Shown: positions 32,484-48,062 of the stretch, one piece after another
Layout of the letters: each line of letters begins with the position of its first letter
Position numbering within the stretch: position 1 is the stretch's first letter
DNA from: Sarcomyxa edulis
Lineage: Eukaryota; Basidiomycota; Agaricomycetes; Agaricales; Mycenaceae
Reading direction: 5' to 3'
Assembly: GCA_009761415.1 (NCBI GenBank)
Contig: QUOL01000006.1
Location: 496,001 to 560,000 of the forward strand
DNA length: 64,000 nucleotides
Made by a program: the position numbers and the translations under genes
The notes under the pieces: model-generated
Seen by the model: the letters and a program-made list of their open reading frames with translations, nothing else
What the model was told of the DNA's origin: nothing
Database searches by the model: none

Positions 32484-33178
32484 CTGAGATGTCGTGGTGT
32501 TGTTAGTTTTGTATCCTGCTTTGATCTTCGCAATAACTTATTTCAATTCATTGACCGCTTAAGAGACTGACAAACAGTTGCAAACAAAAAAAAGCTGCAT
32601 CTACAAAACGCTCAATCGGCTAGTATCAAAATTTCAAGGGTTCCCCCTCCCGAGGGTTCCCGATTTCATTATCTACCAACATGACGGGTCTACCTATGGC
32701 ACTCTATCACGAGTTGGGGACGGCAATGGACGCTTCGGAACTAGAAGATCTCTTCAGTGAGGGACACACACGAGAAGGGAGGAGACTGACTGGGGGGAGC
32801 TGAACCTGAGTGGTCTCGACTTGAGTAGCCCGACTGCAAGGTCGGTATATCGTTGGAATGTAACTCGACAACATGATCACACATCGACAACGAATCAAGT
32901 GACAGACCGTGGTATAAAGAAATTTCCGTCGTGAGCCGAGGATTTCGAGGTGCCGTAGAACGAGTCACTGATTGGTTCACCGTGACGCAGGATCAACCGG
33001 ATTGGAAGGGGACAGTACGAATTTGGGTGACTTGAATGAACACCTGGTGATGTACGTGTTGGCGACATGCAAGCTTTGGAACGGAAGAAACTGCGGAGAT
33101 ATTCAAGAATTTGTCAGCAACTGACGAGTGAGAGGACTTACGAGGTCCTCAATTTCCCAATCTTCAAGACCAAGAAGT
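32484..33178. other. 3' flank of ArgRS copy A, duplicated intergenic DNA
   Basis: About 700 bp shared with 59251-60031. Compared with copy B, about 105 bp are missing here around 32884 (equivalent of 59649-59755), which removes an exon-like minus-strand stretch present in B. No convincing gene. Confidence 0.5.
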
Positions 33179-33183
33179 AACAG
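33179..33183 (+). repeat. Target-site duplication, left (AACAG)
   Basis: AACAG directly before the 5' LTR and again at 45539-45543 after the 3' LTR. Copy B has a single AACAG at 60032-60036, the unfilled site. Confidence 0.93.
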
Positions 33184-33682
33184 TGTAGTGGACGTATACT
33201 CTTCTTATCATGACTCCTATACTTTACTTTTTTACTTTCAAAGTCGCTCGACAGCTATGTTTACATTTCCTTACTTTCGTCACTCATGTCACGTTGTTAC
33301 TCAAGTCACGCGTTATCGCGGACAATAGAATTATCTTTTTACCTTCAAACACCCACCACTGCCTACTACACTTCCTTCGTTGGTCTCTTCGAATAGTTAC
33401 GGGCATCGGGCGTGATATTAATAAGGTCAGGTTTCTAATTCTACTTGAGTTCCCGGCTTCGAAGACTCGTCTCTCAAGGACAGCCTGAGAGATTAGGAAT
33501 CTCGATATACCACTCAAGGATAGCCTGAGTGAGGCGAGATTCCGTGAAGTCTTCGAGACCCGAGGTACTGACTGTACAGGTACCTGTAAGTCTCACACCG
33601 AGGCACCGAGTACGCTCGCCAGCTGAACGCTGAACTCGAACGCGTCCCAAATATTTGTGGGACTCTGCGCACGGGTACCACA
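33184..33682 (+). repeat. 5' LTR
   Basis: 499 bp, TGTAGTGGACG...GGTACCACA. Identical by eye to 45040-45538. Contains a T-rich early part (CTTTACTTTTTTACTTTC), the branched hairpin domain at 33459-33556, a palindromic CAGGTACCTG and a strong splice-donor-like GTAAGT at 33586-33591. Confidence 0.96.
33459..33556 (+). promoter_or_regulatory. Branched RNA domain with two conserved-loop hairpins (5' LTR)
   Basis: An outer 9-bp stem TCGAAGACT (33459-33467) / AGTCTTCGA (33548-33556) encloses hairpin 1 (33470-33492: TCTCTCA, unpaired A, GG, loop ACAG, CC, TGAGAGA) and a second 9-bp stem GGAATCTCG (33496-33504) / CGAGATTCC (33535-33543) that encloses hairpin 2 (33511-33531: CACTCA, unpaired A, GG, loop ATAG, CC, TGAGTG). 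Hairpins 1 and 2 differ in the outer stem pairs but keep pairing and the same loop core. The same hairpin type recurs before the second frame. The pairing is seen directly; the function is inferred. Confidence 0.8.
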
Positions 33683-34080
33683 AAGGTGGACAAATCCGGA
33701 CGCTATTCAGCAAACTGGCCGGCGAACACGAAAATTACAGCTCACCTGCCGAGTTCAATCCACCTCCCGGTATCGAGGAGGACGACGACGCCTCTCTCCT
33801 TCCTTCGGAAGAACCAGGAGTAGCAACCGGTTTATTCCGGGACTCATCAGCTCCTAGAACTATACGTCTCCCCGCGAAAAGCAAGTTACCGATTCGACGC
33901 GGCGGGGAACGACAGTTTTCAACTTCCCTTCTTCAAGATAGAGTCTTGGAGACACGAAGTCTCCCTCTAGCTAGAGCTCTATTCGGAGTTCCTCGTCTTC
34001 CTACTCGAAGCGAATCTTACACAAACCCCGCGTCTAGCAACATCTCGGTGGACGGTATTATCAGCCAGCAATCGTCGCCT

Positions 34081-37000
34081 ATGGCGACGCAAACAATTAC
34101 TCAGGACGACCCGGACCCTTCCGCGGAGTCAGGTCCGAGTCAATCGAGCGGGGAAACACTATCAGGAAAGGAGGGGTACGCGATGTCAGACATGGAGGCA
34201 TTGTTCTTAGAGTACGAACAGAACACGGAAACTTCGTCGTCCACGAAGGCGAGGGCGACGTTGTATGCTAATAAAGCCACGCTTAGCAATAGAGATATTC
34301 TCGACATGGGTCTCACGAAGGACGTAAGGCATGCGCGATTTACCTTGGAGTTGAATTTAGCTCGGGCGCTAGAACAGACAGTGACCGAGCTCCAGAGTCT
34401 GTCGAAGAGGGCAGCCGAACTTATCCCTGGACGGAACACCCACTTTTTGGTGGATCCCTATGGAGCGGCTATGAGCACGCTGCGAGGCTGCGACACTTTG
34501 GCAGAACTCAACATCGCTTGGAGTACGATCAGAATTCGTATCGAATTGGCTCAAAAGTTTTTGTTGAAGTATCAGTCTGAGTATTTCCATAAAGAAGGCT
34601 CGAGATTGAATTCTCCGGTGTCTACAACACTCAGTACCTACGAGACTCCCGTAGGATCGCCCAGCTCCATGCAGCAGCTGAAGTCCTTGTACTTGAAGGT
34701 GCCGCATCTTCGTAATCAACTCACCTTCGAACAGGTTAACCGTATGAGGGCGGGCGAAAGCATTACAGAAGTAATACCCCCACCTTCTCCGCTGTTGTTG
34801 TCGTTCCCAGACAGACAGCCGGAAGTGCGCCCGGCGACGATATCTTACGACGAGCAGGGCGAAATGCAGACCAGAACCATCCCAGGTAGAACGAGCTACA
34901 AAGCGGGGAAGGAGTTCCAGTTGCCTACGGATGACTCCCTCGTTACTAGGAGAAACAAACCGCCTAGGAAAAGTGTTACGTTCGGCGCGGGAGTAAGACC
35001 AGGAGAGCCGAGTTTCTCAGAAACGTTGAGAGAACCTCCTCCTCATCTAGAGGGAGCGGAATATGTGGTATATCCAGCGGGTAATCTTACTTCGACCAGC
35101 TCCTTTGGTGGTACCAACAGAGCAGCTCAACCTGTCCCTTTGATGGGAGACCGAACTTTATACAAGGATGAAGTATCGTTTTTCAGGTCTCCAGGCGGTC
35201 CTCCGCCGCCGGCTATGAGTCGAATGAAGCTTAAGCAGCCGGAAGTCCTTTGGGGCGCTGCTTCCAGTTTTCCATATGGCAAACCGTTGGGATTCGACGC
35301 TCGAAGGCGTCAGAGTTACGCCGACCTCAATCCAGGTGATATACGTTCTGCCGGGATAGACGATCCTGCTACGACGCGAACGGGGAATGTTACGTTTCAC
35401 GGGGGACTTAACGAAGAGGACCAGACTACGTCCAGCGATAGCAGCAGAACCTACTCGCGTCAGAATACGAACCAGGCGTCAGTAGAGCCTGAAGATCGTA
35501 GTATCTCCCCCGAAGGAAACGCTCCAGCTCGGGGAATAGGAACCTCGCCTCGTACTCCTCAACCTGGCAAGGATCGTTCGTCAGGAGACGGGTACGGTGA
35601 AGGCGACAAACCTTACTCGTTCAGGGGTTATTCAGGTTACAACAACCCAAATAGACGAAGTGGGAACAATCCTTCAGGACCGCCTGGAGGAGGCGACGAA
35701 CCTCCAGACCCTAACGATCCGTCTTATCCATCAAGACAGCCAGGACCTCCTAATCCTGGTGGAGGTGGAGGTGGTAACGGACCTCCTAATCCTGGCGGAG
35801 GTGGAGGTGGTAACGGACCTCCTAATCCTGGTGGAGGTGGAGGTGGTCACGGACCACCTAACCCCGGAGGGGGCGGAGGATATCCTCCTCCTTTCGATGC
35901 CAATGGAAATGCTATGATACCACCATACGGTACCTTGATGCCTACCATCAAGCCAGAACTCAAGCAAGATGAACTCCCCTCGTGGGATGGGAATCACAAC
36001 ACCGCCATTGCGTACTTTTGGAACGTTCAGGAACTAGCGGCGTTGGGTGGTTGGTTACCTCACGCGTTGGGCTTTTGGCTGTGGAAGAAGCTGGAAAACG
36101 GATCCGACGTCCAAGAGTGGTGGCAGATGCTTGATCAGGGAAGGAAGGACTTTATGCGGAGCCACTACTTGAATTACCTGGAAGGAATCAAGCGCGAATA
36201 TCTGGGAAAGAACTGGCAGCAGAAGATGAATTTGGAGTTTGGTCAGCAGAAGTTTCGTCAGAGAGGGCATGAAGACGAATCCCCTCAAAAATTCATATCT
36301 CGTCGCATCATGTATACTCGGATGTTGGCCAACGCCGATTTTGGTGGACCCTTGGAGGTCTACATAGTCATGACGCGAGCCCCGATTTCCTGGGGTACGA
36401 TTTTGCACGTCGACGGCATTCCTGACTCTGCCACACTCTACTCAAGGGTGGTCGAGAATTCGGACGCGCTTGCTTACGCTGGTAGAAGCCTGGTGGACAA
36501 CGTCGTCACCACTTCCAATCTTTCGAAGGTGCTGCGACAACTAGGCGTGTCAATGAGCTCGAATGCTCCTTCCTCGGGGCGTTGGCGCAACGAACCTTCC
36601 AAGCGAGCTAACCTAGCTCTGGGGTCAGCACTAGGCGATTTTTCGAGCCAAGAAGCAGAAGAATCGAGCCCCCTGGAAGCGAAACAGTTGGACGCCAATG
36701 ACGATCGCATTCTGAAGGAAGTCTATCAGACCCTGAAGAGGAATCCTAGGCCACCTCCGAAAGGAGGCTACCCCTTTCCTAAAAACGACTCAGTGACCAC
36801 GCAGATGGGTCGTCTACCTCCCTCGCCCTGTAAAGTGTGTGGTAGTAAGAATCATTGGGATAAGGAATGTCCAAACTGGAACGTGTACCTTGAGCGAGAG
36901 AAAAGGAACGCTAGGCTGGTCGAGAGTCAGCCGGACGAAGACGAGGGCCTGTATTCGAGTGCTTACGGAGTATTCTTGAATCGCAGGCTGGGAGCGGAGC

Positions 37001-40000
37001 AGTTAGACGTCAATCAACTCTCCGAAACGAGTCCATCGGATTTTGAGCTGGCCTTTCCTCCGGTCTCTTCTGCGGTACAATCGCAACGGGAGAGTCTTGA
37101 GGAATGTAAGTCCGGAGCTACAGGCCCCGTGCCCAGGAGGAATTACGCCGTTACTATCGAAACGGTGGAAGATGAATCATGGGAGACTCAGCGGGCGATG
37201 CCTACAGCTGAACAAAGAGTCTTAGAATCGGTGGAGGAGGAGGACGATGAGCTTCCTACGCAGAAGGAAGCGTTATATTCCAGGTCGGACAAGCTGGACG
37301 AGGAGTATTGGGCGAATGACGGCAAAATGAAGTTCGAAGGAAAGCGAAACGAAGATGGCGAGAGGTACGAGACACAGAGAGTCGAGGAGGACCTTCCCAA
37401 GGACGACGCTTCGGCCGAGGACGTGGGGTTGGATGACTATCCTAAGCCGTCTAGCGACGAAGGGGTTAAGCGCCTACCCAAGAAACGATTCAGACCGTCG
37501 GGTTGTTCGTCGGTGGGAGTCTCTGTCCTCATGACGAGAGGCTGGGTATCCAGTGTCAACGACGAACCGGTGGATCTGAGAATTGATTCGGGGGCCGATG
37601 TGAGCTTGATGTCGGAGGAATTCTACAGATCTCTCATCTCCCCTCCACCGATACGACAAGGAACGAAAATGCAGTTATGGCAATTAACCGACAAAACGGA
37701 ATCGTTGAAGGGCTACGTGACTATTCCTGTCATCATGACGGCGACGAACGGACAAAGGATTCAGTCGGAAGCGGAGGTGTACATTGTTCCGGGAATGACG
37801 GTTCCGATCTTATTAGGAGAGGATTATCAGATGAATTTCGAGCTCTCTGTAGACCGGAACGTGGAAAGAGGCACTCACCTAACCTTTGGTGGAACGGACT
37901 ATGCTGTAGCAGTTTTGGGAGTCGACCGCACCCCCGACTTCAGGCGTATGCGACAGAGCGCCTTCATGGTCTCCCACTTCATCAAGAGGAAGCTACACAG
38001 GCGGGATAAGGCCAAACGCAGGAAAACCAAGCGGATGAGTGAGGAAGCGCTTCGTACAGTCCGCGCATCTAGGGACTATAAGCTTCGACCTCACGAATGT
38101 AAACCGATCGAGGTGGTCGGGGAATTGGGTGAAGACCGGGACTGGTTAGTGGAGAAAACGTTACTTTCGCAGAACGACCACTCGTACTTCGCCGTCCCGA
38201 ATGTGCTCATCTCTGCCTCAAAACCCTGGGTTCCCATCTGTAATCCGTCGGATCGACCACACTACATTAGAAAAGGTGAGGTCATAGGTAGCCTGTATGA
38301 TCCCGGGACCTACTTCGACACGCCGCGTAACCAGGAAGAGTTGGATCTCCTCGACTTGGATGTCAGTCGCATCAAAGTGATTGTGGAAGCCAATATGGCG
38401 GCGTCAAGCTCGTCGACGACCGCGGAGGCCAAGGATGATCCGTCACCCTCCCACGATGAAGATGAATATGGGCCCAAGACGGCAGCTATGCCCGACCTCA
38501 CGGTTTACCCGTCTGCTGAAATGGAGAGCTTGATAGACGTGGGGGAACTACCGGAACATCTGAAGGCCAAGGCTTGGGAGATGTTAGCTCGAAGACGAGC
38601 CGCGTTTGGGTTCGACGGACGACTTGGTCATCACCCTGCTAAAGTCCATATACGAACCGTGGATGGACAAGTTCCTATAGCGGTTCCTATGTACGGATCG
38701 TCTCCAGCCAAACGGCAGGTAATAGATGCGCAGATCGACAAGTGGTATGAACAAGGGGTCATAGAGGAATCAAAGAGTCCGTGGAGTGCGCCGGTGGTAA
38801 TCGCGTATCGGAATGGGAAACCCCGTTTTTGTGTGGATTACCGGAAGCTGAACGCAGTAACGATACCGGACGAATTCCCGATCCCTCGTCAATCCGAGAT
38901 ATTATCGTTCTTATCCGGCGCGCAGGTATTGTCTTCCCTCGACGCGTTATCTGGATTCACGCAGCTCGAGATGGATCCTTCGGACGTAGAAAAAACGGCT
39001 TTCAGGACTCACCGAGGGTTGTACCAGTTCCGCAGGATGCCCTTTGGTCTCAGAAATGGGCCTTCAATTTTCCAAAGAGTGATGCAGTCCGTGCTAGCGC
39101 CTTACCTGTGGCTATTTTGTCTCGTGTACATCGACGATATTGTCATCTACTCCAAAACTTACGAGGACCATATAGAACACCTCGACCGGGTTTTAGGAGC
39201 CATCGAGGACGCCGGGATTACGCTGTCTCCTACCAAATGTCATCTTTTCTACTCGTCGATATTACTGCTGGGTCACAAAGTGTCGCGATTGGGATTGTCG
39301 ACGCACCTGGAGAAGGTCCGCGCTATCCTTGAACTCGAGCGCCCGAAGAAGGTATCGCAGGTCCAGACGTTTCTTGGGATGGCGGTTTACTTTTCGTCTT
39401 TCATCCCTTATTACGCAAGCGTATGCTCTCCTTTGTTCCAGCTGTTGCGGCAAGGGTCCAAATGGCACTGGGATGCGGAACAGGAGTTCGCTTTCAAGGC
39501 CATAAAGGACGCGCTGCGCTCAGCCCCGGTGCTTGGCCATCCGATGGAAGGGTTTCCCTATCGCTTGTACACCGACGCCTCGGACGAAGCGCTGGGATGT
39601 GCGTTGCAGCAAGTGCAGCCTATCATGGTACGCGATCTCGTCGGGACGAGGGCTTATGACAGACTACGAAAGGCTTACGACTCAGGACAACCCCCTCCCC
39701 GACTAGTCTCCACTTTGACGTCCAAGATTGACGATGTTCCAGCCTCGCAAGAGTGGGGCTCGACATTCGAGAGCTCCATTGTGTACGTAGAACGGGTGGT
39801 CGCTTATTGGTCGCGTACTTTCAAAGGACCTGAGCAGAGGTATTCCACCACCGAGCGGGAAGCCCTGGGAGCTAAGGAAGGCCTAGTGAAATTCCTTCCG
39901 TTTATCGAGGGAGAGAAGGTTATCTTGGTGACAGACCATTCGGCTTTGCAGTGGGCAAGGACATACGAGAACGCGAATCGTCGGTTGGCAGCCTGGGGAG

Positions 40001-41988
40001 TAGTGTTTTCAGCGTATCCCAATTTGGAGATTGTCCATCGGGCAGGTCGAATTCATTCCAACGTGGATCCGTTATCTCGTTTACCTCGGGCTCCTCCCGG
40101 TCATACTTCCCCGGCTGGCGACTACGAGATACCCATTGTTCCAGACTCGACGAGGGCTGAACAGAGCGAGCGTCTGTATTCCAACGAGCCAGCTCGTCGA
40201 GCAACGTTTGTTGCGTGGGATCTTGCCGAGTGTGTCGAGGGCGCTAAATCGGCTTGGGCTACTACGAGGAGTCGATCTCGAGCAGAACCCCTTCATCAGA
40301 GCGAACCTGGGGGGGGAGATTCACGAGCAGATCCACTTGACGCAGACAAGTTCGAAGGGGAGTCTTCGGAAGTTCAGCCGGAGGAGGATCTGGAAAACTT
40401 GTCGGACCGCTACTGGGCGGCCATAAATCCACCTCCTAGCCTTCACGTTCACATGAAAGCGGAGTTGAGGTCACGATTTCTCGAAGGATATTCAGAGGAT
40501 CCGGCATTCAAATCGATTTATGCGAAAGGTAGTTCTACCCCGGAACACTGGATCGCGGGATGCCGGTACTTCCAAGACGAGAATGGGCTACTTTTCTTTC
40601 AGGATGCGGACTATCAGCCTCGGCTTTGCGTCCCCAGGAGTCTGCACAGAGACATACTGGCTGAAGCACACGATAATCCTCTGGAAACCGCTCACGGAGG
40701 ACCGGAGAAACTTTACGGCAAGCTCAGTCAGAAGTTCTACTGGCGGAGGATGAAGGTGGATATCGTTCGGTTCTGCAAGTCGTGCGATGTATGTCAGAAG
40801 ATCAAACCGTCAAACTTCAACAAGTACGGTTACCTGATACCTAACCCGATCCCTACCAGACCTTATGAATCAGTATCGATGGATTTTGTGGTGAATTTGC
40901 CAATGTCCGAAGGTTTCAACGCGGTCTACGTGGTCGTGGACAGGCTGACCAAACATGCTCAATTTATTCCGACGACGACCGCCGTCACTACTACCGAATT
41001 TGCGGAATTGTTCACCAAGAACGTAGTCAGTCGATTCGGCTTACCGGACAGCATAGTGACAGACCGAGACCCTCGCTGGACGTCCGCTTTCTGGAAGGCT
41101 GTGGCCAAATTCCTGAAAACGAAGATGTCACTCTCCTCGGCGCATCATCCCCAACATGACGGCCAGACCGAAATAGTGAACCGTCAATTAGGAATTATGC
41201 TTCGAGCCTACGCTAGTCAAGACAAGACATCTTGGGCGAATTGGTTGCATTTACTCGAATTCGCCTATAACAATGCGGTACACGGCTCGACGGGAGCAAC
41301 CCCTTATTACCTGCTATACGGTTTTCATCCCAAAAGTCCCTTGGACTTCGTATCGTCTTCTCAAACGCAATCGTTCAGAGCGTTGGACTTGGATCGGAAC
41401 GCGGCGAGCTTTTTGGAGACGCTGCAGATGCATCGAGAAGGCGCCCGACAAGCTATAGCCAAGGCGCAGAATGATCAGGCTCGATCGTACAACCGAGGCC
41501 GACGACGACCGCCTGAGTTCAAGGAAGGATCCCAAGTGTTAGTAAACCCGCACACTTTGGAGTGGGTCGAATCCAAAGGAGAAGGGAAGAAACTGACTCA
41601 ACGCTGGATTGGCCCTTTTGAAGTTCTGCAACGTATCAACCCTAACGTTTATCGGCTAAAGATGAGCAGTCGTTATCCTGGTTCCCCGGTCATTAATGTG
41701 CAACACCTGAAACCGTACATCTCGTCGCCCGCGGAATGGGGAAAGAGGCCAGTTCTTCCTGAAACTCGAATCCATAAGCCAGAGGAGCCTGAATATGACG
41801 TGGAGCGGATCTTGGCGCATCGTTTTGACAAGAAGAAGAACAAGACAATGTATCTAGTACGATGGGAGGGATACGGACCACAATTCGACACTTGGGAGCC
41901 TGCGATTAACGTGAAGAACTCACCTCTCGCGTTGGCCAAGTACTTCAAGGAGTCGGACACGAAACCAAAACGATCTGGCGTTGTCTGA
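34081..41988 (+). CDS. Gag-Pol polyprotein with C-terminal chromodomain
   Basis: 2635 codons in one unbroken frame; the ATG at 34081 is the first in-frame ATG (the frame itself is open from inside the LTR). Gag: coiled, charged N-part, a disordered middle with four Gly/Pro/Asn-rich 12-residue repeats (about residues 556-603), a capsid-like part (AYFWNVQELAALGGWLPHAL) and a knuckle CKVCGSKNHWDKEC (917). Protease: LRIDSGADVSLMSEEFY (Asp near 1169). RT: RFCVDYRKLNAVTIPDEFPI (about 1585), LVYIDDIVIYSKT (1681). RNase H: LYTDASDEALGCALQQ (1831). Integrase: zinc-binding HDNPLETAHGG..CKSCDVCQK (from 2197), then the DDE residues Asp 2268 (SMDFVVNL), Asp 2328 (VTDRDPRW) and Glu 2364 (QTEIVNRQ), D-35-E spacing. 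Chromodomain: EYDVERILAHRFDKKKNKTM (2571) to WEGYGPQFDTWEP, which targets integration to marked chromatin. No stops or shifts seen. Confidence 0.95.
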   Translation: MATQTITQDDPDPSAESGPSQSSGETLSGKEGYAMSDMEALFLEYEQNTETSSSTKARATLYANKATLSNRDILDMGLTKDVRHARFTLELNLARALEQTVTELQSLSKRAAELIPGRNTHFLVDPYGAAMSTLRGCDTLAELNIAWSTIRIRIELAQKFLLKYQSEYFHKEGSRLNSPVSTTLSTYETPVGSPSSMQQLKSLYLKVPHLRNQLTFEQVNRMRAGESITEVIPPPSPLLLSFPDRQPEVRPATISYDEQGEMQTRTIPGRTSYKAGKEFQLPTDDSLVTRRNKPPRKSVTFGAGVRPGEPSFSETLREPPPHLEGAEYVVYPAGNLTSTSSFGGTNRAAQPVPLMGDRTLYKDEVSFFRSPGGPPPPAMSRMKLKQPEVLWGAASSFPYGKPLGFDARRRQSYADLNPGDIRSAGIDDPATTRTGNVTFHGGLNEEDQTTSSDSSRTYSRQNTNQASVEPEDRSISPEGNAPARGIGTSPRTPQPGKDRSSGDGYGEGDKPYSFRGYSGYNNPNRRSGNNPSGPPGGGDEPPDPNDPSYPSRQPGPPNPGGGGGGNGPPNPGGGGGGNGPPNPGGGGGGHGPPNPGGGGGYPPPFDANGNAMIPPYGTLMPTIKPELKQDELPSWDGNHNTAIAYFWNVQELAALGGWLPHALGFWLWKKLENGSDVQEWWQMLDQGRKDFMRSHYLNYLEGIKREYLGKNWQQKMNLEFGQQKFRQRGHEDESPQKFISRRIMYTRMLANADFGGPLEVYIVMTRAPISWGTILHVDGIPDSATLYSRVVENSDALAYAGRSLVDNVVTTSNLSKVLRQLGVSMSSNAPSSGRWRNEPSKRANLALGSALGDFSSQEAEESSPLEAKQLDANDDRILKEVYQTLKRNPRPPPKGGYPFPKNDSVTTQMGRLPPSPCKVCGSKNHWDKECPNWNVYLEREKRNARLVESQPDEDEGLYSSAYGVFLNRRLGAEQLDVNQLSETSPSDFELAFPPVSSAVQSQRESLEECKSGATGPVPRRNYAVTIETVEDESWETQRAMPTAEQRVLESVEEEDDELPTQKEALYSRSDKLDEEYWANDGKMKFEGKRNEDGERYETQRVEEDLPKDDASAEDVGLDDYPKPSSDEGVKRLPKKRFRPSGCSSVGVSVLMTRGWVSSVNDEPVDLRIDSGADVSLMSEEFYRSLISPPPIRQGTKMQLWQLTDKTESLKGYVTIPVIMTATNGQRIQSEAEVYIVPGMTVPILLGEDYQMNFELSVDRNVERGTHLTFGGTDYAVAVLGVDRTPDFRRMRQSAFMVSHFIKRKLHRRDKAKRRKTKRMSEEALRTVRASRDYKLRPHECKPIEVVGELGEDRDWLVEKTLLSQNDHSYFAVPNVLISASKPWVPICNPSDRPHYIRKGEVIGSLYDPGTYFDTPRNQEELDLLDLDVSRIKVIVEANMAASSSSTTAEAKDDPSPSHDEDEYGPKTAAMPDLTVYPSAEMESLIDVGELPEHLKAKAWEMLARRRAAFGFDGRLGHHPAKVHIRTVDGQVPIAVPMYGSSPAKRQVIDAQIDKWYEQGVIEESKSPWSAPVVIAYRNGKPRFCVDYRKLNAVTIPDEFPIPRQSEILSFLSGAQVLSSLDALSGFTQLEMDPSDVEKTAFRTHRGLYQFRRMPFGLRNGPSIFQRVMQSVLAPYLWLFCLVYIDDIVIYSKTYEDHIEHLDRVLGAIEDAGITLSPTKCHLFYSSILLLGHKVSRLGLSTHLEKVRAILELERPKKVSQVQTFLGMAVYFSSFIPYYASVCSPLFQLLRQGSKWHWDAEQEFAFKAIKDALRSAPVLGHPMEGFPYRLYTDASDEALGCALQQVQPIMVRDLVGTRAYDRLRKAYDSGQPPPRLVSTLTSKIDDVPASQEWGSTFESSIVYVERVVAYWSRTFKGPEQRYSTTEREALGAKEGLVKFLPFIEGEKVILVTDHSALQWARTYENANRRLAAWGVVFSAYPNLEIVHRAGRIHSNVDPLSRLPRAPPGHTSPAGDYEIPIVPDSTRAEQSERLYSNEPARRATFVAWDLAECVEGAKSAWATTRSRSRAEPLHQSEPGGGDSRADPLDADKFEGESSEVQPEEDLENLSDRYWAAINPPPSLHVHMKAELRSRFLEGYSEDPAFKSIYAKGSSTPEHWIAGCRYFQDENGLLFFQDADYQPRLCVPRSLHRDILAEAHDNPLETAHGGPEKLYGKLSQKFYWRRMKVDIVRFCKSCDVCQKIKPSNFNKYGYLIPNPIPTRPYESVSMDFVVNLPMSEGFNAVYVVVDRLTKHAQFIPTTTAVTTTEFAELFTKNVVSRFGLPDSIVTDRDPRWTSAFWKAVAKFLKTKMSLSSAHHPQHDGQTEIVNRQLGIMLRAYASQDKTSWANWLHLLEFAYNNAVHGSTGATPYYLLYGFHPKSPLDFVSSSQTQSFRALDLDRNAASFLETLQMHREGARQAIAKAQNDQARSYNRGRRRPPEFKEGSQVLVNPHTLEWVESKGEGKKLTQRWIGPFEVLQRINPNVYRLKMSSRYPGSPVINVQHLKPYISSPAEWGKRPVLPETRIHKPEEPEYDVERILAHRFDKKKNKTMYLVRWEGYGPQFDTWEPAINVKNSPLALAKYFKESDTKPKRSGVV
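35746..35889 (+). repeat. Four 36-bp tandem repeats coding for a Gly-rich Gag linker
   Basis: Units of 36 bp (CCTCCTAATCCTGGTGGAGG...) starting at 35746, 35782, 35818 and 35854, each coding for PPNPGGGGGG plus two residues (NG or HG). Copy number is likely to vary between copies of the element. Confidence 0.9.
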
Positions 41989-42349
41989 ATGCCAGGCGGA
42001 TACGAATTTACGAACTTTCACGACGCGTTAGCATTTCTTTTACTTTTATATTTTCTTTGCTCGTCTATTTCTTTATTTTGGAAGTCTTTCTATTTTTCTT
42101 ATTTCCCGGAGCGGGCCGAACGGGCGAGACCTTGGAAGACCACCACGAGGCTCAGTCCATTGTTCGCCCAAAAAGGATAGTCTGTTCCTTGACCGCTTCA
42201 TATACCTCCCTTTTCTTCGTTCTTTCCCTACGTTCCCCCTCTTCATACGCTGTGGGATATTTGTTCACGGATAGCCTGAACGAACCCCACCGGCGACGAT
42301 TTGATCTTCCACGGACAGCCTGGAAGAGGAAAATCTGGGAGCGCTCATC
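41989..42349 (+). promoter_or_regulatory. Leader of the second frame: T-rich tract plus hairpin pair
   Basis: 361 bp between gag-pol and the 891-codon frame. The first part is strongly T-rich (about 42030-42110), then a GC-rich patch, then two hairpins at 42261-42283 and 42305-42327 that share their loop core with the LTR hairpins. The order T-rich tract, hairpin pair, start codon repeats the layout of the LTR upstream of gag-pol, which suggests an internal promoter or a subgenomic leader. Confidence 0.55.
42261..42335 (+). promoter_or_regulatory. Hairpin pair with conserved GGAYAGCC core before the second frame
   Basis: Hairpin 3: GTTCA, unpaired C, GG, loop ATAG, CC, TGAAC (42263-42281, extendable by a T-G and a T-A pair). 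Hairpin 4: TCTTCCA, unpaired C, GG, loop ACAG, CC, TGGAAGA (42305-42327), itself enclosed by GATTT (42298-42302) / AAATC (42331-42335). The start codon is at 42350, 22 bp after hairpin 4. Stem sequences differ from those in the LTR while pairing and core are kept. Confidence 0.78.
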
Positions 42350-45025
42350 ATGGATCACCTCTTCGTAAACTCTCGCGGCGAAACGCAAATCCCGACTATG
42401 CGCAAGATTGGAGATGAATTCTGGGTCAGTTTCAACTTCAGCTCGCAATCGATTCCTCTCGAAGCCCTTCATTATCGGGACATCATAGATCGAACTGCCG
42501 ATTATGGCCCTACAGGCCTTCATCTCGAGATGGACCCAGCCACCGAACCCGGCTGGACTAATCTGGAGAAGCACTGGCTTGATTGGATGATGATAAGGAT
42601 GGAGGACTACGAGAACGGACTCCTCGACCTGAATCGTTCCGTGATGCCAGTAGCTTCGGAGTTTGGCAGTTCTTATGGGATACCCGTCCTTTGGGGCGAG
42701 AAGATGAAGATGCTAATTGCGGACTTAGACGTCTGTTGCAAGGCCATCCGCAATCGAACCAAGTACGGGAGGAGTTCTACCATCCCCACTCCCGTTTCTT
42801 TCGGCATTCTCTACCATGATTACCAGACTGAAAAGGAAGCCGAGATCGCGGCGTCGCAGGCAAAGCGTTACTGCCTGGAAGGATTCGCGTTTCTTTCTTG
42901 GTGGGTACACTCGATTGAAGACTGGTCTCAAGGTTTACTAGACACCACGGTCGAACTTATCGAGGGGTACCCGCTTCGTAATCGTCAGCGCCGCGGGGTC
43001 CTCATCAATCTCGGACGAGACTGGAAATTCACGAACATAGGACATCTCCTACGTCACGACATCCCGGTGTTTTATCCGTGGGGAGTAGTGGAGATGGCTG
43101 ACCCCAGGTTTCACCGTTATTGCCCGGGAATGTTCGAAGATTACCAAGCTCATCTCAAGGCACATCCTGATGTCTTGGGAGCTCGCGCGAGGGAAATCCC
43201 CGGATTCCTTGAGAAGTGGTCGGGGCTGAGAGACTATGATCACTATGGACAGAAGAAGAATCCATCCCCTCGCTCTCTTCCTCCTCCGATTCCTGAGGGA
43301 AAGACCTTTCGGTATCGCATCATCGACTTCGTCGGCTGGCAGAGCAGGGCCGAAACGAACGAACATCGAGCTTCCTTGTACCAAACACGGTATCACTATC
43401 GTCTGATCGACAACATCGAAGGGAGAATGGTCTTGTTCTGGCGTTTCCGCGCTCTTCGTTGGAACGAAGTTGATTTCTCATCGATAACTCTCGCCGAGAC
43501 AAACCTGGTTCACATCCGGGAACTCTACAAGGCCACGTGTGCTCCTCTGCCGGGCATCGTTTATTCCATCGAGACAGGTAACCCTATTCGCGGCATTAAC
43601 GACCCTGTGCCTTCCTTGCCCGAGATTACTGCCTACTTGGAAAATCGGGCGGTGATAGCATTGGAGCTGGGATATGCCGATCCTGGTTCGACTGACTCTC
43701 GAAGCGACGTGGAGATGGAAGACGTTACAGCCCCATCCGACCTCAAACGCGCTCACTCACCTGGACCAACGGCAGTTCACAGTGGAAGGGTAGCTCGGGG
43801 TAATTCTCGCCGAGCTCGTCGTTCCCGGGACTCTCAAAACCAGCGACGCTCGTCTACCAGAAGCTCTCGAAACAGCGCCGACAGTAACGGGCCGGAGGTA
43901 TTGCCCGCGGGCTCCTCCCAGTGGGTCGTAGCTATGTCAGACGGGAGATTTGCCCCTCGCTTCCAGGGCGATACCGAGCGTTTGCGTCGTACAGTACTTA
44001 CCCCTTCTCCACCCGTGAGCCAACCTCCCGAGCCTGTCGATACACCAGAACTTCAGCGCCAGCGACAAATCTTCGTGGACGATTTACGCACTAAAGGACA
44101 ACGGTTCACCCGACCGGGGTCTTTGGTCTCTTACCCAGAGTACTATCGTTGGAACGTCGACTTGTTGAGGTTAGGATATCTCTACGTCAATACTGAGAGC
44201 GAATTTCGCATGCGCTACTGGGCGAACTGCGGGGATATGGGAGATGTCAGGCTGATCTTGACGACCGCTGTAGAGAAGGGAGTACCCTTCAAGATCTGTG
44301 TCGATCCCAAGGACAACCACGTGTTCTTGCCTTCAAATTTGGGCGCAAAGGAGTGGTCCTACGACGTTTACTACACTCCTAATCTTCGCGACCACGTTTT
44401 GGAGTATGGACGCGGTGGTAAAGATCTATATTCTCGCTACAGGTTGCAGTTGCTGGACGTGCTTCACCGCCCCCATGCTCGTGCATTGATAGGGCTGGGG
44501 GGGCCTTCGTCGTGGATTGCGAGGAAATATGGAGGGCCTGACTTGGTCCGGGACTTCATGAGCGGTCCATCTACTCAAGTAACTCTGCACCAGCGCGGCT
44601 ACGTCGACAAGAAAGACTTCCTGTTCTATCGTTGCGACGCGATGACCGACGAGGAATTGAACATAGTTTTCGGCTTCTTGCCTGCCGGGACGTATGAGAC
44701 CGACCGCTGGATCTTCCCCCCGAATGACGTTCTTCGCGAGGTCCTTGACCACTGGAGAGGCGAGTGGAATGAGGACTGCGAAAGGGTGTTCGAGATAATA
44801 TATGGGAAACTGGAATCGGGCAAGGTCGAACCTCGGACTCGAGGGATGTGGCTACAGTACTTCCGTTCGGATAATCGCGGTCGTCATACAGCTCCGTTCG
44901 TACCTGACCAGGCCGACTTTGACGAAGCTCTCTCTCGCTTGCGGCGCGGCTTCCCTGGTAGCTGGGATCGTGCTCGGATTAGCACTCTCTGCGTACCCGA
45001 GGTGTTTTACCCGATCGACGCTTGA
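42350..45025 (+). CDS. Extra 891-residue protein of the LTR element, function unknown
   Basis: A long intact frame in the position where some retroelements carry env, but it has no signal peptide and no membrane segment, so it is not an envelope protein. It starts MDHLFVNSRGETQIPTMRKI. The N-terminal half is globular and aromatic-rich (LEKHWLDWMMIRMEDYENGL; RGVLINLGRDWKFTNIGHLL followed by RHDIPVFYPWGVVEM). A central basic Ser/Arg-rich region (near 43790-43880, SRRARRSRDSQNQRRSSTRS) could be a nuclear signal or RNA-binding part. The C-terminal half is again globular (YRWNVDLLRLGYLYVNTESE; GYVDKKDFLFYRCDAMTDEE). Stop TGA at 45023-45025. Similar unnamed proteins with the phrase of the type INLGRDW..PVFYPW occur, as far as I recall, in agaricomycete genomes; I cannot check it here. 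It may assist nuclear import, RNA packaging or host defence evasion, but no function is shown. Confidence 0.88.
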   Translation: MDHLFVNSRGETQIPTMRKIGDEFWVSFNFSSQSIPLEALHYRDIIDRTADYGPTGLHLEMDPATEPGWTNLEKHWLDWMMIRMEDYENGLLDLNRSVMPVASEFGSSYGIPVLWGEKMKMLIADLDVCCKAIRNRTKYGRSSTIPTPVSFGILYHDYQTEKEAEIAASQAKRYCLEGFAFLSWWVHSIEDWSQGLLDTTVELIEGYPLRNRQRRGVLINLGRDWKFTNIGHLLRHDIPVFYPWGVVEMADPRFHRYCPGMFEDYQAHLKAHPDVLGARAREIPGFLEKWSGLRDYDHYGQKKNPSPRSLPPPIPEGKTFRYRIIDFVGWQSRAETNEHRASLYQTRYHYRLIDNIEGRMVLFWRFRALRWNEVDFSSITLAETNLVHIRELYKATCAPLPGIVYSIETGNPIRGINDPVPSLPEITAYLENRAVIALELGYADPGSTDSRSDVEMEDVTAPSDLKRAHSPGPTAVHSGRVARGNSRRARRSRDSQNQRRSSTRSSRNSADSNGPEVLPAGSSQWVVAMSDGRFAPRFQGDTERLRRTVLTPSPPVSQPPEPVDTPELQRQRQIFVDDLRTKGQRFTRPGSLVSYPEYYRWNVDLLRLGYLYVNTESEFRMRYWANCGDMGDVRLILTTAVEKGVPFKICVDPKDNHVFLPSNLGAKEWSYDVYYTPNLRDHVLEYGRGGKDLYSRYRLQLLDVLHRPHARALIGLGGPSSWIARKYGGPDLVRDFMSGPSTQVTLHQRGYVDKKDFLFYRCDAMTDEELNIVFGFLPAGTYETDRWIFPPNDVLREVLDHWRGEWNEDCERVFEIIYGKLESGKVEPRTRGMWLQYFRSDNRGRHTAPFVPDQADFDEALSRLRRGFPGSWDRARISTLCVPEVFYPIDA

Positions 45026-45037
45026 AGAGTGGGGGGG
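45025..45037 (+). other. Polypurine tract of the LTR element
   Basis: AAGAGTGGGGGGG immediately (two T's) upstream of the 3' LTR start at 45040: mostly purine, the expected primer for plus-strand synthesis. It abuts the stop codon of the second frame. Confidence 0.7.
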
Positions 45038-45039
45038 TT

Positions 45040-45538
45040 TGTAGTGGACGTATACTCTTCTTATCATGACTCCTATACTTTACTTTTTTACTTTCAAAGT
45101 CGCTCGACAGCTATGTTTACATTTCCTTACTTTCGTCACTCATGTCACGTTGTTACTCAAGTCACGCGTTATCGCGGACAATAGAATTATCTTTTTACCT
45201 TCAAACACCCACCACTGCCTACTACACTTCCTTCGTTGGTCTCTTCGAATAGTTACGGGCATCGGGCGTGATATTAATAAGGTCAGGTTTCTAATTCTAC
45301 TTGAGTTCCCGGCTTCGAAGACTCGTCTCTCAAGGACAGCCTGAGAGATTAGGAATCTCGATATACCACTCAAGGATAGCCTGAGTGAGGCGAGATTCCG
45401 TGAAGTCTTCGAGACCCGAGGTACTGACTGTACAGGTACCTGTAAGTCTCACACCGAGGCACCGAGTACGCTCGCCAGCTGAACGCTGAACTCGAACGCG
45501 TCCCAAATATTTGTGGGACTCTGCGCACGGGTACCACA
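45040..45538 (+). repeat. 3' LTR
   Basis: 499 bp, identical by eye to the 5' LTR at 33184-33682, including the branched hairpin domain (here 45315-45412). Confidence 0.96.
45315..45412 (+). promoter_or_regulatory. Branched RNA domain, 3' LTR copy
   Basis: Same sequence as 33459-33556; in the genomic RNA the domain may therefore be present at both ends, depending on where R lies. Confidence 0.75.
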
Positions 45539-45543
45539 AACAG
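45539..45543 (+). repeat. Target-site duplication, right (AACAG)
   Basis: Second AACAG, matching 33179-33183. Confidence 0.93.
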
Positions 45544-45660
45544 AAGGACCTGTGAAAGACATGTAAGCCAGGTATAAGAATAACAGGATGTGACGGACAT
45601 ACAAGACAGAAGGGTAGATTCCCCTTCTTGACGAGTTGTTGATCTTACTAACCGAACGCC

Positions 45661-48062
45661 GCTCGCCGCGAGGCCAGAGTCCCAAGATTTTGACCGTCAT
45701 TTTTGCTCCATATTGACCAAAATGACGCATGGATATACCTACGGCGGGGAGGTTAGATATCAAATTAGATTGAAGGAGACATGAAGGAGGGATAGAACGT
45801 ACCTATACGACGGCGCGAGTTGTATGGTACAGACAAGATGGGAGTGCATGACACCGGGAGTGGCTCACGAAGCTAATTACACAAAGAATTAGCGAAGGTA
45901 CACGATAAAATCAAGTACATCGACTTACCATGAGATTTGGACATGTACGCCTTCGATGATGGGAGACATGAGTGAAGGCCTTGACTGAAGAAATTCCTGA
46001 GCGGAAGGAGCGGAATGAACATCAGAGAAAGAGAACAAAAGAAGTCGATGACATACCTTGGTAAGAGTCCGAGAGCGCAGAACTCGAGTCTGCTCGCCGC
46101 AGGGGCTCTTGGCCCTGCTTTCTGTGACACGAGTTGGCTGATAGGATGGAGGTGAGACAGCGATCGGCGGAAGCTCAAATATGAAATCGGAATATCTGAG
46201 GATAGATGTGTCTTTGACAAAGGACGAGGAGTATAAATCTAAGGGAAATGTAATTAGTAGAGAGAGCAAGACGTGCTAGAACGGGCCAGACGTACCTTGA
46301 GGCAGGAGTCCTGGTTATATCTCATCAAGGTCAAGTGAGACAGGCGAACGTTCGTCGGCAAAGCTGCTGGAAGATTGTGAGTAGAAGGAAGGAAGGAAGG
46401 ACGTGAAGAAGAGGGGATGACATACGAGGATCTGAGGGCGCTACGCGCCCTCTTGTTACAACCCAAACAAAAGAGCACTCAGTTTTTGTTCAATGAAAAC
46501 GGAAGATTAGCTTAAAACGTTGAGTCCGCTCGCCGCGGGGCCAAAATCTCAGGATTTTGACAGTGATTTTGGTGACAAAAGTTAGCCGGTAGGGTATGGG
46601 TATGTAACGACAATTAGCGGAAGCCCGAATATTGAATCAGATCTTCGGGATATAGACGTGACATCGGCGAAGTAAGGTGAGTATAAATCTGAAAGACAAG
46701 ACATTAGTGAGCAGAGCGAGAGATGATGGAAAGAGATCGACGTACGGGGAGCTTCAAGTCTTTGGCAGTAGCATGCAGTCGAGGTCTTGAGTGAACTAGG
46801 GCAAGGATCGTTGATAAGGCTAAACAATCGTCAGTGTAGAAAGCATCATAAGAAGGAACTAACATACGAGGATGTGAGGGCGCTACGCGCCCTCTTACTC
46901 CAAACCAAACGAGATATTATCCGGCCCAATCAACGCGGAAGTTTGAATAGAAAGGTGGAGTCCGCTCGCCGCGGGGCTAAATTTTCGAGATTTTGGCGGC
47001 GTCCTTGATGATAAACTAGGCTTGATGTTGACAAAGTAAGGTGAGTATGAATCTGAAAGACAGGACATCAGCGAGCAGAACAAGAGATGATGGACAAGAT
47101 CGACGTACCAAGATCGACGTACCAGGAGCCTCGAGTCTTTTGCAGTAGCATGCATTCAAGGTCTCAAGTGGAATAGTTCGAGGATCATCGATGAGGCTGA
47201 ACACTCATCAGTATAGAAAGTGTAAAAAAAAGAGGAAATGACATACAAGGATGTGAGGGCGCTACGCGCCCTCTTACTCAACCCACACAAGACGATATTT
47301 CTCGGTCTAACTGACACGGAAGTTTGACTAAAAAGTCGGAGTCCGCTCGCCGCGGGGCAAAATTTGCGGGAACCAAGCGTCATTTGTGGTGCGTAGATTA
47401 GCCGAAGGCAGTAGGTTGAGCGATGAAGGTGAGGTGGCTTGTGGGGAACACTACATAGCGAGTAAGCTTAGTCTGCAGAGGGAAAAAACGGGTAGACTAG
47501 ACGTACCAGACTTATTGGGTGGCGCTTCCAGTTTGTGCTAGCTCTTTGCTTTCTTGATACTATGACGAGGGATCGGCCAAAGCTTTAGGCGCGTGAGAGC
47601 ATAGGCATGTAAACAACGATTCAAGAAAGTCTAAGTACGGAATGAGTACAGTATAGGAAAGTGATGATTGTGCGAACAGGCATACCAGGCTTGGAGGGCG
47701 CTTCGCGCCCTCTTTTCCCAGTCCAGACGGCACTCAGAACCTTTTTGCATCCACAAACACGCAATATTATCTCAGAACTTGGAGAGCGCTCGCCGCTGAG
47801 CCAAAATCTGAGATTTTTGAGCGGATTCCTTGCTGCCAAAATGAGCCGAGCATACGCTCAGCGAGGACGATGGAAGAGTTAAGATTGAAAACTTGAAGAT
47901 CGAAATATAGATTTGGCATATCGGACGGAGATCTGCACGGCGCAAGCCATCATGTCGTGCATGCATGACCACGTCGAGTCCTGCCCCGAGTTAGAGGAGA
48001 AAAGACCTTTCTCTTCGATGAACACGTCAGTATGTTTCTGACAATGCCAGTACGCTCGCCGC
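45661..48062 (-). repeat. Degenerate ~430-bp tandem array with GC-rich hairpins (copy A)
   Basis: The 9-mer GCTCGCCGC occurs at 45661, 46092, 46528, 46964, 47345, 47788 and 48054: spacings 431, 436, 436, 381, 443 and 266. A perfect hairpin GAGGGCGC-TAC-GCGCCCTC sits at 46434, 46876 and 47255, with loop TTC at 47694. After most GCTCGCCGC words comes a small AAAATC..GATTTT hairpin. On the minus strand each unit also has intron-like pieces, for example GTATGTTAG..TTTAG then GTACGTCG..TTTCAG around 46680-46860. So the array could be a spliced, repetitive non-coding transcript or a decayed repeat-protein gene. Units are related but too degraded, with stops, to read as one protein. Confidence 0.75.

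Follow-up and report, generated by a model that had tools for sequence, protein, structure and literature searches.

The locus considered here raises the question of why a retrotransposon should carry the same small hairpin in tandem at two distant places in its RNA. The element, a chromovirus of the LTR/Gypsy type, lies in a stretch of 64,000 nucleotides (nt) from the fungus Sarcomyxa edulis (contig QUOL01000006.1 of assembly GCA_009761415.1, positions 496,001 to 560,000 of the forward strand), referred to here as the window. It has long terminal repeats (LTRs), a gag-pol open reading frame (ORF1) and a second frame of unrecognised family (ORF2), and the hairpins occur as one pair in the LTR and another immediately ahead of ORF2. 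Two issues have to be settled: (i) whether the hairpins are a conserved structure acting as RNA; and (ii) what molecule reads them. We suggest, with a probability of roughly 0.6, that the tandem hairpins are a cis-acting recognition signal on the sense strand, most likely for packaging, that would be read by Gag and exploited in trans by parasitic elements.

Within the window element the hairpins are as the preliminary description of this DNA had them. The exact core CANGGAYAGCCTG is present at 33475, 33515, 42266 and 42310, with 3′ LTR copies at 45331 and 45371; when one mismatch is allowed the window holds six matches, and shuffled sequence (100 shuffles) averages 0.48. The outer stems differ in sequence and still pair (TCTCT/AGAGA, CACT/AGTG, GTT/AAC and TCTTC/GAAGA), and pattern searching and folding both recover a single unpaired base (A in the LTR, C before ORF2), the GG/CC pairs and an AYAG loop. 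The LTR pair was also correctly placed within a branched fold containing two perfect 9-bp (base-pair) stems, for which the folding energy is −49 kcal/mol (z −5.4, sense). Three pairs of hairpins of this layout, at a spacing of 36–48 nt, are found on the plus strand of the window and none on the minus strand; 100 dinucleotide shuffles, searched on one strand each, gave no such pair.

Relatives were compared within one genome assembly (35.6 Mb, 40 contigs), and elements are named by contig. Distinct elements with a related ORF2 number 14, counting that of the window; C34:645106 (C34a), whose hairpin letters are identical to those of C2:1488943, is left out of the counts. Some relatives are fragmented; in C2a about 16 kb separates the start of ORF2 (L030) from the LTR (L032), and the two were assigned to a single element from their position and loop. 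The LTR pair is present in 13 of the 14 elements and the pre-ORF2 pair in 12, and a lone LTR with no ORF2 nearby (C2:1278263, C2s) carries the pair as well. The pre-ORF2 sequence of C40a (L026, C40:923591), which has the LTR pair, is unlike the others and perhaps contains an insertion. The sample amounts to 26 modules, or 52 hairpins, of which 50 have GG/CC around a four-base loop with unpaired 5′ bases before the GG or one position further out (minimum free energy). Exactly one 5′ base is unpaired in 46, and four have a wider internal loop (C2a LTR hairpin 1 and the second pre-ORF2 hairpins of C2a, C11b and C34b); the two failures are C10 pre-ORF2 hairpin 1 and C11b LTR hairpin 2. In class B elements the unpaired base is one position further out than in class A, and a third pair stands ahead of GG/CC; anchors for class B were placed by eye from the folds. 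The core GGAYAGCC, described as shared, is constant within the window element but as such is not conserved among the relatives, because the loop varies between elements.

Covariation was assessed for the LTR modules, the pre-ORF2 modules and the in-frame modules of non-autonomous relatives (see below). Nine of the 14 LTR modules were used; in these, 79.6% of cells are paired and 26 of 37 pairs have double changes, a count that none of 500 shuffles reached and that falls to at most 16 with the partner slid; the covariation score is 0.446 versus 0.224 when shuffled (0/500), and the count of further pair types was matched by 12/500 shuffles. The closing stem of the LTR fold is the weakest of the four helices, with 60% of cells pairing in the nine modules. 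For the pre-ORF2 modules (7 of 12 used) the corresponding values are 92.9% paired, 12 of 20 pairs doubly changed (1/500 shuffles; at most 7 when slid) and a score of 0.590 versus 0.244 (0/500). The in-frame modules (7 of 9 used) have 92.1% of cells paired versus at most 40% when slid, double changes in 9 of 27 pairs (2/500) and a score reached by 0/500 shuffles, the further pair types being not significant (85/500). Sliding the partner reduces every measure in all three tests, with the caveat that the structures were derived from the tested sequences, which favours the unslid version, and that the shuffles ignore kinship.

A covariance model was built from the nine LTR modules; run over 51 sources with 244,880 bases in all, it returned 39 matches with E no greater than 10. 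Outside its training set it matched class B LTR modules (L029, 7.7e-5; L028, 0.0025; L035, 0.018; L033, 4), the pre-ORF2 modules of the window (3.2e-5) and L025 (1.1e-6), and a non-autonomous module (L055, 7.3e-5). It did not recover the class B LTR modules in L027 and L036, and there was no match in more distant groups (L048–L054) or in two other Gypsy families (L081–L084). By both covariation and the covariance model, the 5′ leader or LTR holds a conserved RNA structure of the kind expected of a packaging signal. The preliminary description would have been undermined by relatives devoid of both pairing and core, or by covariation tests that gave no support; in this genome pairing and layout are kept and covariation is strong.

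The strand of the structure is indicated by its wobble pairs. Outer-stem cells of the 52 hairpins, taken in class A register, include 30 G.T (a pair in sense) versus 7 A.C (a pair in antisense only), and the 32 class A hairpins alone give 12 versus 3. The pre-ORF2 stretch also favours sense, with z −2.8 versus −0.5 for antisense. A DNA-level signal is disfavoured by the excess of G.T over A.C, the sense orientation and the one-sided bulge. Taken as comparisons of sequence, these tests establish an RNA structure that is conserved, covaries and is biased towards the sense strand. The LTR hairpins are probably present in the element RNA; no consistent TATA word was found.

The signal is confined to this group of autonomous and non-autonomous relatives, which we call the clan. 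A single core is not specific: genome-wide it has 19 exact matches versus 11 for the reversed pattern, nine of them in the clan and the other 10 outside, lone and without a pair. Specificity resides in the hairpin pair. The pair pattern GGRNWGCCTG-N(26-38)-GGRNWGCCTG suits class A alone. It has 29 matches in the 35.6 Mb and its reversed control none; by position, 21 matches are in autonomous elements (C34a included), one is in the lone LTR and seven are in non-autonomous frames. All 29 are in the clan and in sense, and the class A pair is thus restricted to this clan in this genome. Two control Gypsy families have no hairpin pair in the stretches examined.

The loops bear most directly on what reads the hairpins. 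The window element has ACAG and ATAG at both sites. ATTG is found at all four hairpins of C2b, C17 and C11a, GTTG at all four of C40b and ACTG at all four of C2a, and C3 has AAAG and GAAG in the LTR and ACTG and GAAG before ORF2. Class B loops are mostly ATAT, with AGAT, ACAT, ATCT, ATTT, ATTC, AAAC and ATAA also occurring, and one ACTG in C11b. In permutations that ignore kinship, identity between LTR and pre-ORF2 loops within the 12 two-site elements is 0.807 versus 0.533 permuted (0/5000), and within the seven class A elements it is 0.929 versus 0.693 (6/5040). The stem arms have no such within-element agreement (5′, 0.420 versus 0.405, 1209/5000; 3′, 0.432 versus 0.400, 417/5000). Since the loops agree within elements and the stems do not, it appears that loops were replaced at several sites while the stems drifted separately. 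Copying of whole hairpins between the LTR and the pre-ORF2 site is rejected, the stems being no more alike within than between elements. Because loops differ among elements of one nucleus and are uniform within an element, an element-encoded ligand is the simplest explanation, and to judge from the sequences it is more likely than one host ligand. The ATTG, ACTG and class B elements each form one group in the Gag tree and in the ORF2 tree, the class B group being weakly supported (72/50 and 65/53); C40b, of class A layout, is on a long branch apart from the other class A elements.

Non-autonomous relatives provide the second line of evidence. Two exact-core matches pointed to long frames (L006, L009), the N-terminus of which is weakly related to that of ORF1 (E 6e-6 for C17, 7e-4 to 0.014 for the window). 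C23 and C34 have LTRs and target duplications (Table 1), the C34 LTRs being 99.6% identical over 449 aligned nt, and C6, C4, C19 and C33 are further members (LTRs are demonstrated for C23 and C34 only), with C33 repeating C19 across the stretch compared. No reverse transcriptase (RT) match was found at any of them in a genome search in which 82 of 141 candidates were scored, no zinc knuckle in five of their proteins (C34 in part), and no Pfam family in eight pieces of their frames (the C34 frame being covered except for about 1.1 kb). The primer-binding word of the autonomous elements recurs in all six, and their polypurine tract recurs in C23 and C34; TGGACAAATCCGGAC, within the primer-binding region, is common to relatives and non-autonomous elements. 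Judging from the near-identical LTRs of two of them and the common primer-binding site, the non-autonomous elements may be mobilised in trans.

Their hairpin pairs are located inside the reading frame, at 45-nt spacing: three in C34, two in C23, one each in C6 and C19, and in C4 one pair plus a second copy in which only hairpin 2 is convincing. The encoded peptides differ at the stem arms, and pairing is mostly kept; when sequences are folded singly, hairpin 1 in copy 2 of both C34 and C4 prefers a different structure. The C4 loop, ATAA, is that of the autonomous element C1a, and C6, C19 and C33 have ATTG. C23 combines ATAG, ATTG and ACTG, and the three pairs of C34 have ATAG, ATTG and GTTG. 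Upstream of the C6, C19 and C4 frames (L057, L056, L059) there is another hairpin, whose stem seems by eye to covary (GTACTC/GAGTAC, GTACCC/GGGTAC).

The junction with the primer-binding word was also compared. Preceded by AAG, the word is found nine times, in seven autonomous elements of class A (C34a included) and in C23 and C34; preceded by TG it is found 12 times, in four elements of class B, in C4, C6, C19 and C33, and in four other places, two of which were examined in part. The junction of C4, whose loop is of class B, is TTGG, as in class B, and that of C23 and C34 is AAGG, as in class A; C6, C19 and C33 have ATTG loops and the junction ATGG, which fits neither class. The C3 junction is GAGG, and C40b and C34b are without an exact primer-binding word in the stretch examined. 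The same word is present in L091 (97 and 281), with one ATAA-loop hairpin upstream of it and no frame of 100 amino acids or more in 1.6 kb.

The mechanism that we favour is as follows. An element-encoded RNA-binding protein, most likely the zinc-knuckle nucleocapsid part of Gag, would read the loop and the unpaired base, and the reading of two adjacent hairpins would select the element's own full-length RNA for particles. Elements without detectable RT or zinc knuckle would use the in-frame signal for packaging in trans. The same protein may also damp ORF2 translation through the pre-ORF2 pair, as at the MS2 operator for replicase; such a double role in packaging and translation is possible because pre-ORF2 hairpin 2 lies 27–51 nt from the start codon. 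The preliminary description had proposed a Gag-binding element for packaging or translational control. Loop agreement favours its element-encoded protein, and the packaging part gains from RT-less relatives that share the hairpin pairs and primer-binding site; that Gag is the protein, and packaging rather than translation the function, we infer.

A more elaborate version of this mechanism, which we hold only tentatively and think somewhat doubtful, is that each lineage has its own tetraloop word in the tandem hairpins, read by its own Gag, as a private address. Parasites would collect several words as in-frame arrays and so be packaged by more than one lineage, and the pre-ORF2 copy would double as a translational operator.

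Several observations weigh against a packaging signal read by Gag. Descent from a uniform ancestor would add to the loop agreement. C1a has a single hairpin at each site, and C40a has none before ORF2. For the LTR stretch the antisense strand folds no worse than the sense strand (z −5.6 versus −5.4), and that fold alone therefore assigns no strand. No pair of this layout is present in the non-autonomous LTR stretches examined. Finally, the nearness of the pre-ORF2 pair to the start codon in 12 elements also fits translational control, and the loop classes track both the Gag and the ORF2 trees, so that the reader could equally be the ORF2 protein (ORF2p).

The first of these last two points leads to the alternative that survives best, although we regard it as unlikely: the pre-ORF2 (and 5′ leader) hairpins would be a translational operator bound by ORF2p or Gag, with packaging uninvolved. 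The pair precedes the ORF2 ATG in 12 of 14 elements, the GG of hairpin 2 being 27–51 nt from it (in C39 another in-frame ATG lies at 23), and ORF2 stays open in divergent elements. Three elements of a more distant group (one disrupted) carry bulged hairpins of another kind, also repeated, ahead of their own ORF2, and none was seen in the two LTRs examined. Against an operator stand the pairs that non-autonomous elements carry in mid-frame, without an ORF2 relative, and the distance of the LTR pair, about 550 nt ahead of the assumed ORF1 ATG. Two further roles for the pre-ORF2 site were rejected, a splice acceptor (no consistent AG after a pyrimidine tract, by eye) and an internal promoter (TATA-like words at inconsistent places).

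Next, and likewise improbable, is that ORF2p, as a second RNA-binding or particle protein, selects the RNA, the rest being as in the Gag mechanism. The loop classes fit the ORF2 tree no less well than the Gag tree, and because the two trees agree they cannot separate the proteins as readers; the control families show no pair, ORF2 having been sought there only by listing frames. However, it is Gag that has the zinc knuckle (in 12 of 13 relatives examined), which in Ty3 is needed for packaging according to excerpts of PMC4974528. In ORF2 no sign of an RNA-binding domain was found by Pfam or PDB searches, and an AlphaFold2 model from two sequences is uninformative (predicted local distance difference test, pLDDT, 30).

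A host RNA-binding protein, decay factor or export factor is much less probable than either. Tetraloop hairpins are common host ligands, but the loops here differ among elements of one genome and are shared across the sites of one element, and this pattern of agreement within, not between, elements disfavours a single host ligand. Least probable of all is a kissing-loop dimerisation signal, for which one could cite retroviral GACG tetraloops that act in packaging and may aid dimerisation (PMC516450, in excerpt) and the self-complementary ATAT loop of several class B hairpins, but the class A loops (ACAG, ATAG, ATTG, ACTG, GTTG, GAAG, AAAG) are neither self- nor partner-complementary.

Compact motif, element-specific variants and natural parasites using the motif all coexist within one genome, and specificity is therefore testable by swapping four loop bases. 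If packaging by Gag is correct, the clan would offer a natural set of orthogonal hairpin–protein pairs, and in it one could follow how parasitic elements and autonomous ones contend, as in an arms race, over genome selection.

Table 1. Features of the window element and of two non-autonomous relatives (window positions, except for C23 and C34)
Feature	Position	Strand	Remarks
Target duplication, 5 bp	33179-33183 and 45539-45543		AACAG; on both sides of the element
5′ LTR, 499 bp	33184-33682	+	100% identity to 3′ LTR
Closing stem of LTR branched fold, 5′ strand	33458-33467	+	partner 33548-33557; from fold
LTR hairpin 1	33470-33492	+	unpaired A, GG/CC, loop ACAG
Distal 9-bp stem	33496-33543	+	33496-33504 pairs with 33535-33543; carries LTR hairpin 2
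LTR hairpin 2	33511-33531	+	unpaired A, GG/CC, loop ATAG
Primer-binding site and adjoining leader	33687-33702	+	TGGACAAATCCGGACG
ORF1, ATG start assumed	34081-41988	+	Gag, protease-like, RT, RNase H, integrase, chromodomain
Pre-ORF2 hairpin 1	42260-42284	+	unpaired C, GG/CC, loop ATAG
Pre-ORF2 hairpin 2	42305-42327	+	unpaired C, GG/CC, loop ACAG; 22 nt upstream of ORF2 ATG
ORF2, 891 amino acids	42350-45025	+	no relative found in Pfam or PDB
Polypurine tract	45026-45037	+	resembles that of two non-autonomous elements (C23, C34)
3′ LTR, 499 bp	45040-45538	+	identical to 5′ LTR
LTR hairpin 1, 3′ LTR copy	45326-45348	+	
LTR hairpin 2, 3′ LTR copy	45367-45387	+	
C23 non-autonomous element	about 1978571-1986482		447-bp identical LTRs; duplication CCGAG
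C34 non-autonomous element	about 630932-638611		LTRs about 445 bp; duplication GAGGA

The window element (Table 1) is a young LTR retrotransposon. It has the structural marks of Ty3/Gypsy elements (LTRs with target duplication, primer-binding site and polypurine tract) and, as in chromoviruses, RT, RNase H, integrase and chromodomain in pol order. The zinc knuckle of its Gag is at about 36829-36870, and the protease match in ORF1 scores under the curated cut-off. A 36-nt repeat in Gag (35707-35879) codes for a Pro/Gly-rich stretch. Among 5.8 billion proteins searched the sole relative of ORF2 is P0001 (45% identity), a protein without flanking DNA, and no relatives outside the source genome were found in genome_contigs or viral_contigs. 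A precomputed annotation gives PF28437.1 for P0001; our Pfam scan matched neither P0001 nor ORF2. No curated Rfam family matched at E up to 1 across 32500-46000. Directly 3′ of the element (45624-47839) are repeats spaced about 380-440 nt (families D2, D4, D5, D6), and each D5 copy has an inverted repeat such as GAGGGCGCTACGCGCCCTC.

The more distant Gypsy elements have RT at about 66% and an unrelated ORF2, for which no homology with ORF2 of the clan was found; the primer-binding site differs in the one examined. Their repeated bulged hairpins (L048, 1-551; L052, 571-930; L049, minus strand, 1-747) have cores CCTGCAC..GTGCGG or GCTGCT..AGCGC and, by eye, some matched outer pairs. Their ORF2 (L048, 551-3781; L049, 11-3355, minus) contains long Arg/Ser repeats and may be RNA-associated; it had no Pfam match, and one piece tried had no PDB match.

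Finally, the hairpins can be compared with known systems. The MS2 operator has a short stem, one unpaired 5′ base, two pairs and a four-base loop, a layout shared by 50 of our 52 hairpins, 46 of them with exactly one unpaired 5′ base. The resemblance drawn in the preliminary description thus extends to layout; no leviviral coat-protein family was found in ORF1 or ORF2 by Pfam, and the likeness is therefore analogy only. According to excerpts of PMC4751978, the MS2 operator (TR) both controls translation of replicase and initiates assembly. Like the clan's pre-ORF2 pair it lies at a downstream cistron, in MS2 also the place where assembly begins, and several similar sites per RNA are found in the clan as among the dispersed packaging signals of MS2. 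Unlike MS2, the clan consists of fungal retrotransposons and has tandem pairs with an element-dependent loop sequence.

In the literature searched we found no description of these hairpins, which is not proof of absence. Fungal chromoviruses are likewise chromodomain Gypsy elements, and some are drawn with an extra ORF of unknown function; the word hairpin does not occur in the excerpted text (PMC2864245). Ty3 also has a Gypsy-type Gag with a zinc finger, and its packaging depends on the zinc finger of the Gag3 nucleocapsid (NC) and, on the RNA side, on sequences of the untranslated region (UTR) or POL; by the account of this 2016 review (PMC4974528, in excerpt), Ty packaging sequences were not precisely defined. 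Excerpts of PMC4974528 and PMC11381356 describe no such hairpin pairs for Ty1 or Ty3. The GACG packaging hairpins of alpha- and gammaretroviruses are also tetraloop hairpins in the RNA of LTR elements, with Gag/NC as proposed reader (PMC516450, in excerpt); unlike them, the clan has an unpaired base, a GG/CC core, lineage-specific loop changes and extra pairs far downstream, before ORF2 or in frame. If the copy before ORF2 does double as a translational operator, the clan would provide an example of an MS2-like switch in a eukaryotic retroelement.
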